NCBI RefSeq assembly: GCF_001488575.1
Contig: NZ_LN831303.1
Location: 248,001-312,000 of the forward strand
From: Halobacterium hubeiense
Lineage (GTDB): Archaea; Halobacteriota; Halobacteria; Halobacteriales; Halobacteriaceae
Direction: 5' to 3'
DNA: 64,000 nt
Under the pieces are notes generated by a model that did no database searches, had not been told where the DNA came from, and saw only the letters and a program-made list of their open reading frames with translations. Both the position numbers and the translations under genes were made by a program. The first letter of the stretch is position 1. Every line of letters starts with the position of its first letter. Positions 44,546 to 57,945 of the stretch are shown here, piece by piece.

Positions 44546-45778
44546 TTAGTCGATCACCCACAGAATCACCGTGATCACCGTCGCGATGCAGAGAATCACC
44601 GCCAAGACGCCGAACGCTACCCGGAATCCACGCACATCAGAGAGGTATCCTACCGCCGCGGGGCCGACAGCGCCTGCGGCAACTAACAGCGTCCGGACGA
44701 CTCCGAGCGACCCCTTCGCGATACTCTCCGGTAACACAGTGACGAGGTACGCGCCGCGTACGGGCCGATATCCGTGAGCGCCGACGCCGAGCACAATCAC
44801 CGTCGCCCCGAGCCCGATTGCCCCCGCGGTCCCCGACAGCACAACGAGGGCGACGAGTCCCGCCGTCGCCGCGGTGAGCGTACCCACAACGAGCGGCAAA
44901 ACGCCGACACGGTCGCTCGCTTCCCCGGTAACCAGCTGGACTAGACTGACCGCGAACAGACCGCTGAACAACAGATTAGCGGTTACCGACGGGAGATTCC
45001 CTGCGCCCATGAGATACAGCGGGAGGAACGCCACGAGGCCGTTGTACACGAACGAGAACAGAATCGTGACGACGACGAACGCCGAGAACTTCGGCTGGCG
45101 GAACAAGTCGACGTACTCTCGAAGCTGGGGCGACCCGTCACGCTCCGTGGCGGCGGGCTCTCGCTCGAGGTGGCGAGGCACGCGGACGAGGAACGCGAGA
45201 GCGACCGCCAGCGCTGCGAGACCCCCCACCAGAAACAGTGTCCGCCACGGCGCTCCGAACACTCCCGGCAAGGAGGTCGCGGCCACGACTGCAGCAGGTG
45301 CTGCGACGCCGGCGAGACTACCGACCGTGTCGAAGACGCCCAGCGACCGCCCGGTTTCAGTGGGGTAAATCCGAGACAGCAACTCGATCGCGACGGTCTT
45401 GTACGTCCCTGTGCCGGCACCGACGAGCAACATCGCACCAGCCAACACCGCGAACGGCGCATCCACCACCAGCGAAAGCGCCCCGATTCCCGTTACAACG
45501 CCACCGACCGTAATGACGCCTACTGACCCCGACCGGTCAGCGATATACCCGGATGGGAACTGCATCGCGGCGTACACGAGCATGAGTCCCGTGAACGCTA
45601 GTCCAAGGTCAGTCCGTGTAACGTCGTATATCGTCTCGAACTGCCCGAACAGCGGCGGGAATGCGTACCGCAGGAATTTGCCGAGGAACCACACGAGCGC
45701 GGTCAGCGCCAGCGCGTCGTAGCGACGGAAGCGGGACAGCGAACCGAGACGTCCCGTTGTGATGTCATCGGCCGTCAT
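44546..45778 (-). CDS. MFS transporter
   Basis: A 410-aa protein with twelve transmembrane helices and a MFS loop 2-3 region (GYIADRSGSVGVITVG). Charged loops are short and a Glu/Arg-rich cytoplasmic loop lies mid-protein (185-210). Substrate unknown; by context an organic acid. It lies 207 bases upstream of the dehydrogenase gene and 102 downstream of the acyl-CoA synthetase, all leftward. Confidence 0.85.
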   Translation of the reverse strand: MTADDITTGRLGSLSRFRRYDALALTALVWFLGKFLRYAFPPLFGQFETIYDVTRTDLGLAFTGLMLVYAAMQFPSGYIADRSGSVGVITVGGVVTGIGALSLVVDAPFAVLAGAMLLVGAGTGTYKTVAIELLSRIYPTETGRSLGVFDTVGSLAGVAAPAAVVAATSLPGVFGAPWRTLFLVGGLAALAVALAFLVRVPRHLEREPAATERDGSPQLREYVDLFRQPKFSAFVVVTILFSFVYNGLVAFLPLYLMGAGNLPSVTANLLFSGLFAVSLVQLVTGEASDRVGVLPLVVGTLTAATAGLVALVVLSGTAGAIGLGATVIVLGVGAHGYRPVRGAYLVTVLPESIAKGSLGVVRTLLVAAGAVGPAAVGYLSDVRGFRVAFGVLAVILCIATVITVILWVID

Positions 45779-51996: not shown

Positions 51997-52452
51997 TCAC
52001 TCCTCTGCGCGGCGGTCTTCGATATCTTCGATAATGGCTTGTGCTCGTTCTTCTGCAGTTTTGGAGTGGTCGCTTGTCGGCTCTGTACTCTCATCTCGAT
52101 CGAGGCTGGGGACTTCGTGTTCCCAGCCCTGCTTGGCGTAGGCGTCGTCAGGTGCTTTCTCAAAGATTCGAGCGGCTGAATCGAGCGACGCAAGTCGTTG
52201 TTTTAGTTCATCGGCTCGATGCGGATTGATATAATAGGTCGTTTCTGCTCGTTCGACGAGCCGATCCTCGAAGAGGCGAGCCATCGCTTTTGATGCGCTT
52301 GTCTCGCTGAGGTCTGTTCGTGCTGCGATTTCACTGGGCGTGAAGCCGTACTGGTGGTGTGCGACGAGGAAGCTGAGTGCTTCGTATTCGTTCGTATCCG
52401 GCTTCACCGGGTATGGGTCGTCATTTGTGAGGTCGTCGACGGGAACTACCAT
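51997..52452 (-). CDS. MarR/TrmB-like HTH protein
   Basis: A 151-aa protein with an HTH at 27-75 (YEALSFLVAHHQYGFTPSEIAARTDLSETSASKAMARLFEDRLVERAET), followed by a short helix and an acidic, disordered tail. It probably binds DNA as a dimer. Such proteins are frequent as antitoxins or repressors on haloarchaeal plasmids. No toxin is adjacent (the next 2.2 kb has no gene). Confidence 0.7.
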   Translation of the reverse strand: MVVPVDDLTNDDPYPVKPDTNEYEALSFLVAHHQYGFTPSEIAARTDLSETSASKAMARLFEDRLVERAETTYYINPHRADELKQRLASLDSAARIFEKAPDDAYAKQGWEHEVPSLDRDESTEPTSDHSKTAEERAQAIIEDIEDRRAEE

Positions 52453-54706
52453 CTTTCCTACTATGTGTTACCAGCTGCCATTACGGTTTTCGGCGCGGGT
52501 ATTGGACCGGATGGCTTTGTTGAAATCCTATTGGTTCAACCATTCCGCAGCTGAACCATCCCCTAAATGGATATGCGAATCTAATATACGGGTGAGCCCA
52601 GCCGTCGTCTCTACGGCAATTAGAAGACGTTGTCATAGCAGCATACGCGTTTCTCGATTCAATTCGATTCGTCCCACAATTCGTCTTCGACTGAAATCTC
52701 GAACTGTCCATCAGAGGAGACTATCGCTCCCGCTTACCCCCTCCCCGACTACCGCCATCGCCATCGCCCTCGTCGTCGACGTCGATGTCGTCGCTGTCGC
52801 CGCCGCCCCCGGACCCCAGTGCTTCCGCTGTTCTCGCTCCACCCAAACCCCATCGTCTCTCGAGACGCCGCCCCCTCTCGCCGCCCCGACTCTCGCTCGT
52901 TCTCCATCGCTGTTCGCCGCGATGTTGACTCCCCATCATGCCGAGTCCAGACCACTCCCCGAATCGCCGCCCCCGGCGCGACCGCATCAGTCCCCCGCCC
53001 ATGCCGAGCCACGATGGACCCACCACCTCGCCACTCGCTCGCCAGCCACCCATCCTCGCTGTTCGGTCCTCGCCAGACGACTCCCGTAGCCCCACCCCTC
53101 GCCAGACGATCTCCCCCGCCGCTCCACTCACCAGACGTCGTCCACCGAAGCCGCCGGTTGCCTCCTCGCTCCTCGCTGTCTTCTCAACTCAGTCCCTCGC
53201 CAGTCGCCGCCGCCGAGCTCGTCCACGCCACACCTCGCCGTTGACGCCTCCTGTCCTCCCCGCCTCGCCGCGCCTCTGCCCCGCCTCCACCAGTGCGCTC
53301 CCCCAGGGTTCCCACCAATATCAACAATCTGGTAGTACCTCTATCGCCTACGCTCCCACTCCACCCCTCACCCTCGCCTCCAACTCGGCTCTGCCTGAAT
53401 CATCCGCCACGCGACCACCAACTGGAACTTCAACTTTCCTGAACCCTAATTGTGTAATTTCGGCTGGTCGTACACGACAATAGTAGATGACACTATAGCC
53501 TCTGTAAAGCAATCTAAGGGCGTGTCTGAACGTACACGCTCGATTTCGGGGGTGGCGAATTAAACAGATTACCCCCTGAATTGTACCGCCGTCTGGTGAT
53601 TACACAAACTAACAGGTAGAAAGCATAAATAAACATGGAAGCGCTAATTCGGTTGCCGTCTGGTGATTACACGGGGTTTTGAAGCCGGTTCAAGAGTTAA
53701 ACACGGACACGCCGAATCCTACTGCCGTCCGGTGATTACGGTACTAAACATACATCCCCCGGAATCCGACCGCCGTCTGGTGATTAGGGTGCCGAGTCGA
53801 TTCTGTGAGGGCGCTCTGAACAAGTAAATACAACCCCCGTGAAATTCTGGTGCCGTCCGGTACTTACGGGATTAAACACAGACACCCCGTAATCCCAACG
53901 CCGTCTGGTACTTACGTGATTTGCTGTCTGCGTCGCAGTTCTACTGTGGCAGTAAACACGCACCCCCCGGAATTCGACTGCCATCTGGCAATTACGGAAG
54001 TAAACATGAGACCCCCGAATCCGACCCCTGTCGTGTACTTAGAACCGAAAACCACCGGCTAAACTATATTGAATGTGGTAGGTATGGTGATAGCGGTGGG
54101 AGAACACCGCCGATGATCACGGGCGAGACGACCCAGAGATAGCGTGGGTTGAGCTCGGGTGACGACTGGTGAATACTTGCGTTCGGTATTGGGCGTCTCT
54201 GTGGATGATTCGTTGTTGGTGGTGTGCTGGTTGTGGGATTGGGGTGTCGTTGAGGTTTCTCACGTCCGTCGTCGTTGTAGAAACGTTACTGCGTTCGGCT
54301 TTCGTGCGTGTGGGCTCGTTGTGGGAGGGGTATACTGCCGAAGCTGGCGGTGTAGACGCTAGTTCAGATTTGGCGGGTTCGACCCCACTGCTCGCGACCA
54401 GTACACGCCACCCGTATCGTGTCGAATTCGGGGTGGTGGCTGCTGGAGGACGTGTTCGGCATTCTCCTGTGCGGGTTGCGCCGTGCATCGCTCCCGAAGT
54501 CGTGTGGAGAGCCATCGATTGTACTGGTGGCGTTCATTCGTCGTGGCTGTGGTGTCGTTGTGTCGTGCGCCTGGGCGTGGCGTGTGCTCGTTGTGGCGCT
54601 CGTAACGGATCGTGCCGGTAGGAGACTGCGCGAGTAGAGAACAGCGTGGGGAGTCGGATGGTGCGCTAGCGGTGGGCGGCACCGACTCGGGATGTCCTGG
54701 TGGCGG
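52453..54706. other. 2.2-kb gene-free region with composition switch and repeat array
   Basis: No credible gene. From about 52720 to 53450 the plus strand is strongly C-rich with many CTCGCCAGACG-like repeats, which makes stops rare and leaves long open frames in several frames at once; none resembles a protein. From 53550 to 54045 a repeat array follows (separate entry). From about 54150 to 54660 the plus strand is GT-rich. The change from C to G bias across the array resembles a replication start or terminus. Confidence 0.6.
53588..54042. repeat. Higher-order iteron array (128-bp period)
   Basis: Eight copies of a core GCCGTCTGGTGATTAC-like word start at 53588, 53655, 53724, 53772, 53852, 53900, 53980 and about 54027. 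Distances are 67, 69, 48, 80, 48, 80 and 47, so from 53724 onward the pairs repeat every 128 bases. Each core is preceded by a TAAACA..CCCCGGAATCC-like block. This is a direct-repeat array of the kind found at plasmid origins or centromeres. Degeneracy and unequal spacing argue against CRISPR. Confidence 0.7.
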
Positions 54707-55836
54707 TTACTGGGCGGGCGCTGTAGTGTCGTCGCCGGTGTCGTCGCTGGTGTCGTCGACGGGTTCCTCGGTGGATGAGTCGATGGTTACGACTTCGCCC
54801 TCCTGTTCGAGATCAAGTCGGAAGCCGCCTTCGACGTGGTTGCCGCCGAGGTCGTCGTCCCACTCTGGCGTGTAGCGGATGGTTTCGTCGGGCATGATGT
54901 CGTTGTTCTTGAGGAAGCCTCGCGCCGAGATTGTGTGGGTCTTGCCGGAGCGGTAGGCGTAGACATCTCCCCGGTCGTAGTTTTGCTCAAGCGGGATAAT
55001 TGCGATCTCGTTCCCACTGTCGTTGTACGCGAGAATGACGGCTTCGGTGTCTTCGAGGTACTGTTCAGCGACTGTTGAGTTCGGGGCAAGCCGGCCGTCT
55101 TCACGGAGCGTGATGAACTCACGACCGTGGAAGACGCCGAAGCCCTCGTCTGAGAGTGAATCAGAGATTTCGGCGATCGATGGAACCGTGTGACGTTGGC
55201 AAGCTCCTCAATGTTACAGACGAGCAGCGGCTTCCGACGAGTCATCATTTCCCAGCCGTTGGAGTACGTGATGCCGTGGTGCAGCATCCGCTTGTACTCG
55301 TTTTTGTTCTTGCCGAGGTATTTTCCGTCGACGGAGTAGAACTGCCCACTCATCTGGTTGAGTGAGTCCTGTAAATTTTCCGCGATTCGCTGGGACTGAG
55401 CCGCCGCACGCAGCGACACGTTGTACGTGTGACTCGGGTTCTTCAGGTCGATCTGCGCCATGCGACTCTGCCCAGCACGTTGGCCATCAACCTGCGAATC
55501 CATGATCGTGCCACCGACTTCCTCCGGCGTGTCTCCACGATGCCGCTCACGTTTTTCTTCATCAGACACCCCCAACACTCCATCTAGGGCACTTCGGATG
55601 ACCATTCCGGCCATTGTGTGAACACCGCGCTTGAGGCGGCCTTTCTGTCGTTGTGCTTTCGGCGACCAGTCGGCACGTGGCTCGAACACGACCTGGAAGA
55701 GCACAGCGCCGTCAGCTTGGATGATCGTCTCAAGCAGGTTCGACAGCGGGGACCGCTCGGTAGTTTCGGTGTCGAAACGAGTGAGAACCGTCATCCAGTC
55801 CTTCCGACGTTCCTCGACACCCTCGTACCGAACCAT
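54707..55836 (-). pseudogene. Decayed conjugation-type ATPase N-terminal region fused to unrelated tail
   Basis: In one minus-strand frame (55836 to about 55190) lies a segment like the N-terminal domain of VirB4/HerA-type conjugation ATPases of haloarchaeal plasmids (VRYEGVEERRKDWMTVLTRFDTET, MLHHGITYSNGWEMMTRRKPLLVCNIEELANV). Near 55185 the frame shifts by one base into another, ending at 54707 (VPSIAEISDSLSDEGFGVFH.., ARGFLKNNDIMPDETIRYTPEWDD). A TAG lies a few codons before the first ATG while the frame is still family-like, so the N-terminus is cut too. No Walker motif remains. Reads as a remnant; the tail may be a separate small gene. Confidence 0.5.
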
Positions 55837-55938
55837 GTACGGGACACCGTCGAAGACTTCCGTGATGTCGAACTAACTGTTTGAGCCACTCTCAAACGTT
55901 CGACCGACGCCATCCACGAATTATGGGATGACCCGAAC

Positions 55939-56587: not shown

Positions 56588-56998
56588 CTACTCGTCGAAG
56601 GTCATTCCGTAGCCCCACTCTTCGAGGTGCTCCTCGACTTCGTCGAGATGGTCTAGTCCGGTCTTCATCAACGCCTCCCGGAGGTCAGTCAGGGAGACGT
56701 CGTCGTCGAAGCGGTCTTCGAGTTCTCGCTGGGCGTCACGCTCGCCGCTCTTGGTGTCGCTCTGCAGGAACAGCGGGACGCGCTCGCGGCCGTCTTGGAC
56801 GCCGTCACGCCGGAACTTGTACGGAATCTGCATCGAGCGCTGCTGCCGAGACGACTCCGTGGTCCCGCCCGTCGCGCGCTCGCGCTCCTCGGTCCCCGAC
56901 TCGGTCGTGGACGCCTCCGTCGCTGTCTCCTCTCCGCCTGCGCTCTCGTCGCTCGACGCAAAGGGGTCCTCGCCCGCGCCCTCTTTCATCCCCGTCAT
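56588..56998 (-). CDS. ParA partner protein
   Basis: A 136-aa protein. The first 55 residues are Ser/Thr/Glu-rich and disordered. The rest has a conserved basic patch (SMQIPYKFRRDGVQDGRERVPLFLQ) and a C-terminal helix pair (VSLTDLREALMKTGLDHLDEVEEHLEEWGYGM). Its ATG overlaps the stop of parA by 4 bases, so it is translated with it. In position it is the ParB-like DNA-binding partner, though no ParB motif is seen; it may bind the 13-bp array upstream of parA. Confidence 0.65.
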   Translation of the reverse strand: MTGMKEGAGEDPFASSDESAGGEETATEASTTESGTEERERATGGTTESSRQQRSMQIPYKFRRDGVQDGRERVPLFLQSDTKSGERDAQRELEDRFDDDVSLTDLREALMKTGLDHLDEVEEHLEEWGYGMTFDE

Positions 56999-57870
56999 GC
57001 GGACAGCACCTCGTGGTCGAGGTCGCCGGGCTCGGGCGGGTTCGGCGCTTCCAGCCCGACCTGCTCTTCCAGGTGGCGGGCAATCCGGTCGAACTGGGCG
57101 AGCGTCTCGATTTCGTAGTCGCGCCGGCGGTCGCGGTGGTTCCGGACGTACTCGAACGCCGAACACTGTTGCATCCAGCAACCCTCCATCAGGGACGCCC
57201 GCTCGCCGATGACCTCGGGAATGGGGTAGTCGATTTCGTCGAGAATCGTGCGCTGGTCGCGCGTGTTCTTGAACCCGACCGGCACCGCGGCGAGGACGCC
57301 CACCTCGACGTCCAGTTGGTCCTCCAGCCCTGCGACCAGCGATTCGAGGCCTTCGACGGCGGCTCGTCCCTTCGCGCTCGGTTCGACGGGGATGACGAGC
57401 GAGCGCGTGGCGTGAATCGCGTTGTAGAGGTGTGGCCCTTCGGTCGCGGGCGGGTCACAGATGAGGACGTCGTACTCGTCGGGCACGCCGGCGTCTTGGA
57501 GGACGCGCAGCAGCTGCGCGTGCATCCCGAAGGCTTCTCCCATCGCTTCGGCTTGGTCTTTCTCGCGTTGGAGGTATTCGGCGAGGTCCGAGAGCATGTT
57601 GTGCTCCGGGATGATGTCGACGCCTTCGACAGTCCGTACGAGGTCGTCGAAGTCGCCGCTGGGGCGCCGAATCATGTGTCGGACGATGTTGTCCACGGAC
57701 TCGGTGCGGTCCGTGTCGACGCCGAAGAGTCGGGAGAGGTCGCCGTCTTGCGGGTCGAGTGGGACGACGAGCGGTTTCAGGCCCGCTCGTGCGTGCGCGA
57801 CCGCGAGGTTCGCGGCTGTCGTCGTCTTCCCGACCCCGCCGGCCTCGCTGTACGTCGAGTACGCTAACAT
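56995..57870 (-). CDS. parA: ParA/Soj partition ATPase
   Basis: A 291-aa ParA-type ATPase with the deviant Walker A (EAGGVGKTTTAANLA, residues 9-23), an Asp-rich switch (PLDPQDGDLS), and Walker B YDVLICDPPATEG. It positions or segregates plasmid DNA on the nucleoid. ATG 57870 is chosen because homologues start MLAYxTYSEAGG; a start at 57894 would add eight residues. A 13-bp direct-repeat array lies just upstream. Confidence 0.9.
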   Translation of the reverse strand: MLAYSTYSEAGGVGKTTTAANLAVAHARAGLKPLVVPLDPQDGDLSRLFGVDTDRTESVDNIVRHMIRRPSGDFDDLVRTVEGVDIIPEHNMLSDLAEYLQREKDQAEAMGEAFGMHAQLLRVLQDAGVPDEYDVLICDPPATEGPHLYNAIHATRSLVIPVEPSAKGRAAVEGLESLVAGLEDQLDVEVGVLAAVPVGFKNTRDQRTILDEIDYPIPEVIGERASLMEGCWMQQCSAFEYVRNHRDRRRDYEIETLAQFDRIARHLEEQVGLEAPNPPEPGDLDHEVLSA

Positions 57871-57945
57871 ACTCACTTCATGGACACCACTCATCTTGAA
57901 AGTTCTGTGTGTTCATTCATTGTTGAACGGGAACGAACTCTCTAG

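Follow-up and report, generated by a model that had tools for sequence, protein, structure and literature searches.

The window analysed here, the whole stretch of 64,000 nucleotides, lies on a 349,522-bp contig (C2) of a 3.13-Mb Halobacterium-type genome and contains an element of about 0.6 kb, set in about 2.2 kb of DNA that has no annotated gene (Table 1). It includes an array in which a 31-nt unit is repeated eight times in direct orientation; a repeat search of the window located the copies at spacings of 67, 69, 48, 80, 48, 80 and 47 bp. The 16-mers that define the A sites start at 53588, 53655, 53724, 53772, 53852, 53900, 53980 and 54027, and a second, TAAACAC-like word, B, stands about 26 nt ahead of each of them, with a word-to-word distance of about 35 bp within the unit; on the minus strand the unit contains a run of G. 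A profile of the A site trained on 203 units, all from arrays outside Halobacterium, recovers all eight sites with scores of 23.8 to 37.0, and no position in 20 simulated windows (first-order Markov) scored above 13.8. An isolated weak match to the same profile (score 15.5) occurs on the minus strand at 45365.

The preliminary description of this DNA had begun the array at 53588 and had seen core words alternating at 48 and 80 bp, giving superunits of 128 bp at 53724, 53852 and 53980. All of these positions are exact, but the 128-bp period holds for units 3 to 8 only; units 1 to 3 are spaced by 67 to 69 bp instead, and this spacing is kept in relatives. In tandem repeat analysis, suggested as a check, the repeat search returns the eight copies; the array is absent from the output of Tandem Repeats Finder. 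The array itself is borne out, but the B word and the left block were absent from that account. A CRISPR array, which it had already discounted, is rejected here as well: it needs near-identical repeats and spacers of about one length, and the copies in the window are 61–84% identical to the reference copy at spacings that vary from 47 to 80 bp.

The 26-nt core of the left block has a single match in the window, where none is expected by chance. The variable word of the block is GTACACG in this replicon, at 53470–53476 and 53532–53538, and its two copies flank a TATAG..CTCTNTAAAG stretch. The block at 53439–53470, CTGAACCCTAATTGTGTGAATTCGGCTG, is near-invariant and conserved across families, and some loci have a dyad of the TTAGAGA/TCTCTAA type between the two left-block words. 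The flanks are strongly skewed in composition: GC skew is negative to the left of the element in 23/23 oriented loci and positive to the right in 21 of the 22 loci with enough sequence. Most of the left flank is just 42–57% identical between the window genome and H. noricense, and a gene hidden in the flanks was rejected, the differences between the two showing no codon-position bias in three ORFs.

Table 1. Features of the element and of its neighbourhood, in window coordinates.
Feature	Position	Strand	Basis
MarR-like winged-helix gene, far-left member of the module in relatives	51997–52452	−	
Left flank, no convincing gene, C/T-rich on the plus strand, GC skew about −0.4	52600–53430	.	
Left block, conserved: CTGAACCCTAATTGTGTRAWTTCSGCTG followed by two copies of a plasmid-variable word	53439–53570	+	Alignments, profile search
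Composite units: B word, C-rich stretch + AATCC, A site	53561–54042	+	A/B covariation test
A-site array, eight GCCGTCTGGTNATTAC-like sites	53588–54042	+	Repeat search, profile; spacing common to relatives
Right flank, G/T-rich on the plus strand, reaching the small-gene remnant from 54707	54060–54800	.	
Small module gene, remnant; reading frame open as far as the stop, ATG/GTG/TTG start absent before 54895	54707–55168	−	
Remnant of the VirB4/HerA-like ATPase gene, residues 133–363 of 1164, one TAG inside	55189–55881	−	

The element recurs in other haloarchaea. With 53400–54100 as the query, blastn matched six plasmids of PLSDB, best among them plasmid 2 of H. noricense (89.5% over the whole query); the other five are 69–80% identical over 11–49% of it. 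The same query matched 17 of 391 haloarchaeal genomes. A profile of the left block plus the first unit, built from 24 sequences, found 35 places in 27/391 haloarchaeal genomes and 11/86 genera, most of these places being already known and part of the profile and three genomes (G223, G279 and G353) being new. H. salinarum R1, of a laboratory species, carries the element on pHS2, at about 77600–78060 of NC_010369.1 (L140), between an IS-interrupted ATPase gene and the RHH-like gene OE_RS11570. Two arrays occur on one contig or plasmid in Halobacterium sp. KA-4 (L039), where some 3.5 kb separates them and one consists of five units rather than eight, and in L138. Searches of open-licence papers did not turn up the element. 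A scan for A sites in 19 stretches of about 10–50 kb, smaller than whole replicons, was aimed at finding an autoregulated gene and returned almost exclusively the arrays themselves; beyond them it gave a second array on Fb21 p1, single weak sites in L049 and L117 and, again in L049, one site of a second array that is partial.

The scan of 32 arrays used a position-weight matrix whose training set was these arrays themselves and which includes no term for spacing. Exactly eight units were present in 24 arrays, five to seven in another seven (some of which lie at a contig end or have suffered a deletion) and ten in one. Among 211 intervals, the 207 of up to 100 bp all measure 47, 48, 67, 68, 69, 79, 80, 89 or 90 bp; the four longer ones (125, 136, 184 and 184 bp) are near the sums expected across missed units. 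The pHS2 array is spaced 67-69-47-89-47-69-47, the second array of the Fb21 megaplasmid 68-68-47-79-47-79-47 and the second array of Fb21 p1 69-70-48-80-48-80-48. A self-repeat scan run without the matrix, from which A-motif sites were retained and B words and other self-matches skipped, gave 67-69-47-89-47-69-47 in G223 (its 67 and 89 each join two raw entries), 68-69-47-90-47-89-47 in G368-4, 69-47-137-89-47 in G368-3 (where a last entry at +176, without an A motif, was left out), 68-68-48-109-48-110-47 in G279 (its 110 joins two raw entries) and 138-48-101-48-101-48 in G353. The later arrays thereby add intervals of 70, 101 and 109/110 bp, the classes at 101 and at 109/110 coming from one array each.

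With n for each class assigned by the analyst, the means of six interval classes fit (n+1/2) × 10.52 bp with an intercept of −0.01 and residuals of at most 1.0 bp, and an open scan from 6 to 20 bp returned a best period of 10.54 bp. Random class means would agree in phase to this degree with a probability of about 0.01 for the six classes and 0.0025 for the first four; independent events are fewer than arrays, because the arrays share ancestry and some are near copies. The 32-bp step, equated in the preliminary description with about three helical turns, proves to be one of a series, the intervals of relatives fitting 4.5, 6.5, 7.5, 8.5, 9.5 and 10.5 turns. From A to the next B the distance, derived by hand, is 12, 33, 44 or 54 bp, approximately a whole number of turns. 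Since A follows A at half-integer turns, neighbouring A sites should lie on opposite faces of the DNA; with A sites on alternate faces, and whole turns from each to the next B, an ordered higher-order complex could therefore form. The mutual dissimilarity of the 32-nt inserts between conserved units, also remarked on earlier, extends to relatives: in 110 comparisons among 11 chosen arrays, identity is 0.30 between spacers, against 0.27 for shuffled sequence and 0.70 between units. Spacer length is kept; spacer sequence is not. Through complete turnover of the spacers the half-turn spacing has been maintained, which documents helical phasing clearly and leads to the prediction that insertions of 10 bp will be tolerated and insertions of 5 bp will not. 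That the array is organised as the binding site of a multimeric protein would be, as remarked earlier, is well supported at the level of sequence, as is the helical phasing.

The words themselves vary from array to array, and they vary together. B is often palindromic and A follows 35 bp on; the pairs that shift in concert include TTCATGAA/TCATTAC, GTATAC/GTATAC, CTATAG/CTATTAC, TATATAC/TATTTAC and TGAATA/TGAATA. In 18 chosen arrays the match between A and B exceeds that of every permutation (0/20000 reach it), although the array's own B is the best match to its A in only 6/18. The RHH proteins of G210 and G342 are identical and their left flanks 98.8% identical, but their words differ, which suggests that arrays are swapped as cassettes; likewise, the RHH proteins of Fb21p1 and G087a are 95% identical and the words differ. 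No single protein stood out in Mantel tests as tracking the words: the correlation with a putative helix of the ATPase (r 0.37, 13 rows) is about equal to that with parts of the RHH protein, and the G210/G342 pair runs counter to it. On the pair and the Mantel tests, the RHH protein and the ATPase helix are each rejected, or at least weakened, as the sole specificity factor. One word per replicon was also rejected, as differing words are found on the arrays of the Fb21 megaplasmid and on contig C4 of G095.

In its fullest form, and in the orientation of the window, the locus reads MarR, Mrr-like nuclease, p239, DUF7344, RHH-like, [element], small protein, ATPase, with all genes on the minus strand. 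Halorubrum halophilum and Halobacterium sp. KA-4 carry full modules. In the window no RHH, DUF7344, p239 or Mrr gene lies between the MarR-like gene and the element, and the window genome yielded no RHH match at E 1e-6. The module has evidently decayed in this genome, to judge from the gene remnants, yet the spacing of the array is intact despite the loss of neighbouring module genes. Further along the window, a parA gene occupies 56995–57894, and adjacent ORFs between 58603 and 62275 that by eye resemble substrate-binding proteins look like a tandem duplication.

Protein similarity alone identified nine full-length close ATPases, and for all eight that are uncut by a contig end (L117–L122, L125 and L126) the element lies 0.2–1.1 kb past the 3′ end of the gene, in the opposite orientation; the ninth (G342) stops at a contig edge, and an array lies near the end of another contig. 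The element is beside none of four truncated ATPases (L128–L131) and none of three paralogues of 35–41% identity (L134–L136), and the parts of L134–L136 that were scanned contain no array-like family beside the paralogous genes. Approached from the element, a near-full-length ATPase (at least 1013 aa) falls within the examined stretch in 5 of 22 loci, some of these stretches being short or ending at contig ends; on the Fb21 megaplasmid the ATPase and the second array lie a few kb outside it. The site is thus often, though not provably always, carried alone. Loci without an ATPase would be expected if the site can be served in trans, but the lack of a full ATPase near most loci also fits a function independent of it. 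The protein has no Pfam or NCBIfam match; its structural model (mean pLDDT 66.6) matches VirB4/TrwK (E 9.7e-12), HerA, TrwB and DndH, and a C-terminal winged helix and a PD-(D/E)XK-like domain are putatively read from its sequence. Homologues occur in 213/391 genomes at E ≤1e-20 and in 139 plasmids at E ≤1e-50. An RHH-like match is present in 17 of the 32 array-bearing loci, one being a fragment and one lying on the far side of the module. We speak of an RHH-like protein on the basis of a sequence pattern and of one sub-threshold Pfam match (RHH_5, E 0.0013, in the pHS2 member), the other members having no Pfam or NCBIfam match and the low-confidence structural model no fold match in the PDB. 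A CetZ tubulin gene (Pfam CetZ_C) adjoins the RHH-like gene in L121, L124, L125, L126 and L133, where it is partial.

Sequence comparison establishes the unit and its almost constant number and geometry, together with the synteny and the covariation of the words. Our preferred explanation, which we hold tentatively, is that the element is a cis-acting site of nucleoprotein assembly, most likely one that loads a translocase for plasmid DNA transfer, as clt does. A clt-like loading site is preferred on two grounds, the constancy of a VirB4/HerA-like translocase as partner and the survival of the site alone. The array would be the phased DNA-binding part of a conserved cis element within the module ATPase, small protein, [element], RHH-like, and a DNA-binding protein would occupy its eight pairs of B and A words; the most likely occupant is the RHH-like protein, acting alone or along with the small protein or the C-terminal domain of the ATPase. 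The ordered higher-order complex assembled on alternate-face A sites may then load or orient the VirB4/HerA-like translocase on the plasmid that encodes it, for transfer of the DNA, much as TraB acts at clt. The trans-acting genes of the window having decayed, its copy of the site would either be a relic or depend on proteins supplied in trans. It is possible, but doubtful, that these elements form a new class, in which an eight-unit scaffold at (n+1/2) turns, bearing paired words swapped as cassettes, loads the motor for relaxase-free transfer of archaeal plasmids. The movement and maintenance of haloarchaeal plasmids and megaplasmids are poorly known, and the element offers a concrete cis site and candidate proteins for these replicons, including pHS2 of H. 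salinarum.

The main rival is a centromere, in which the RHH-like protein binds the phased repeats and the complex is moved by the ATPase, by ParA or, in some plasmids, by CetZ. The preliminary description had offered a centromere as an example; it stands as a possibility, but a rather unlikely one. Plasmid centromeres of the parC and tubC kind, bound by ParR and TubR, are likewise direct-repeat arrays near the gene of a DNA-binding protein, and the 12-bp spacing from A to B resembles that of their repeats. The RHH-like genes, the CetZ genes beside some of them and the parA gene 3 kb from the array in the window would all suit such a role. However, a ParABS or TubZRC system has a constant motor and binding protein in one operon, whereas the ParA proteins of four replicons (L137–L139 and the window) are separate, about 3–13 kb off and only 23–51% identical, with mostly unrelated partner proteins, and the recurrent neighbours of the element are instead the ATPase, the small and the RHH-like genes. 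No constant ParM, TubZ or ParA partner was found for the element, and its long quantised spacers are unlike parC and tubC. CetZ was found in only five loci, which by genome label belong to a single genus group, and in none of the other loci searched, and a CetZ-based, TubZ-like partition was rejected or at least weakened on this ground. Arrays with different words on one replicon or contig (Fb21 megaplasmid; G095 contig C4), and an array kept without an RHH gene in the window genome, also speak against a centromere.

A replication origin, or an enhancer bound by a plasmid initiator, is distinctly unlikely. GC skew changes sign at the element, an orc1/cdc6 gene lies about 2–9 kb away on three closed plasmids, and the unit has its G-run; the strong skew, however, is a short, local property of the flanks. 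Haloarchaeal Orc1/Cdc6 origins, according to PMC3528665, have inverted ORBs adjoining an orc1/cdc6 gene. The G-run repeats near plasmid replication genes on some plasmids recall that arrangement, but unlike ORBs the repeats are direct, and no fixed orc1/cdc6 family adjoins the element: the Orc1/Cdc6 proteins of the three closed array plasmids are just 32–35% identical, and in the window genome some 100 kb of the same contig separates the array from the nearest Cdc6_C match. The origin named as an example in the preliminary description is, in its Orc1/Cdc6 form, unlikely.

Helical phase matters too for the accessory sequences of site-specific recombination, integration or DNA-packaging systems, and the strictness of the phasing would suit one of these, as would the match of the ATPase to phrog_5156 (a PHROGs family of unknown function) and the integrase-like gene that adjoins the ATPase of the Fb21 megaplasmid. 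We nonetheless regard such a system as very unlikely, since a scan of the neighbour families against Pfam found no recombinase or terminase, relatives of the ATPase were absent from a pattern-based scan of viral contigs, none of which has the exact left-block pattern either, and blastn against phage records returned no match. A transcribed regulatory or structured RNA locus, for which the long conserved region without annotated genes and its strand-biased composition might speak, is highly improbable, given that the block and the array fold unremarkably on either strand (8 pieces, z −1.5 to +2.1), that the window has no Rfam match and that half-turn phasing of repeats is a property of the double helix.

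A loading site for plasmid transfer, the reading preferred here, has two known counterparts. One is oriT with accessory RHH proteins of the TraY/NikA type. Like oriT, the element is a cis site with phased candidate protein sites, an RHH-like gene and a translocase whose model matches VirB4 and TrwB; unlike oriT, it comes without a relaxase of the families PF03432 or PF08751 in any of the six element-bearing genomes searched, in four of which (G017, G110, G368 and G256) the element stands next to a full-length ATPase. The lack of these two families leans towards a clt-like site over a classical oriT, and would also fit a role outside transfer. The other counterpart is the TraB/clt system of Streptomyces, in which, according to PMC4170104, a plasmid-borne translocase of the FtsK/HerA superfamily acts with a cis locus of short TRS repeats. 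A locus of this type would have its repeats bound by the winged helix of the translocase and be needed in cis for transfer of the plasmid. The element differs from clt in having two covarying words per unit, eight units and quantised half-turn spacing, and in its larger, VirB4/HerA-like ATPase, its additional RHH-like and small proteins and its archaeal setting, a role in transfer being putative here. As to the translocase, the window has a remnant alone and most element-bearing loci have none. As at clt, however, a translocase of the FtsK/HerA superfamily is encoded beside the locus for 8/8 full-length, uncut close ATPases, and the element may work like the clt loci of Streptomyces, of which it would be a putative member.
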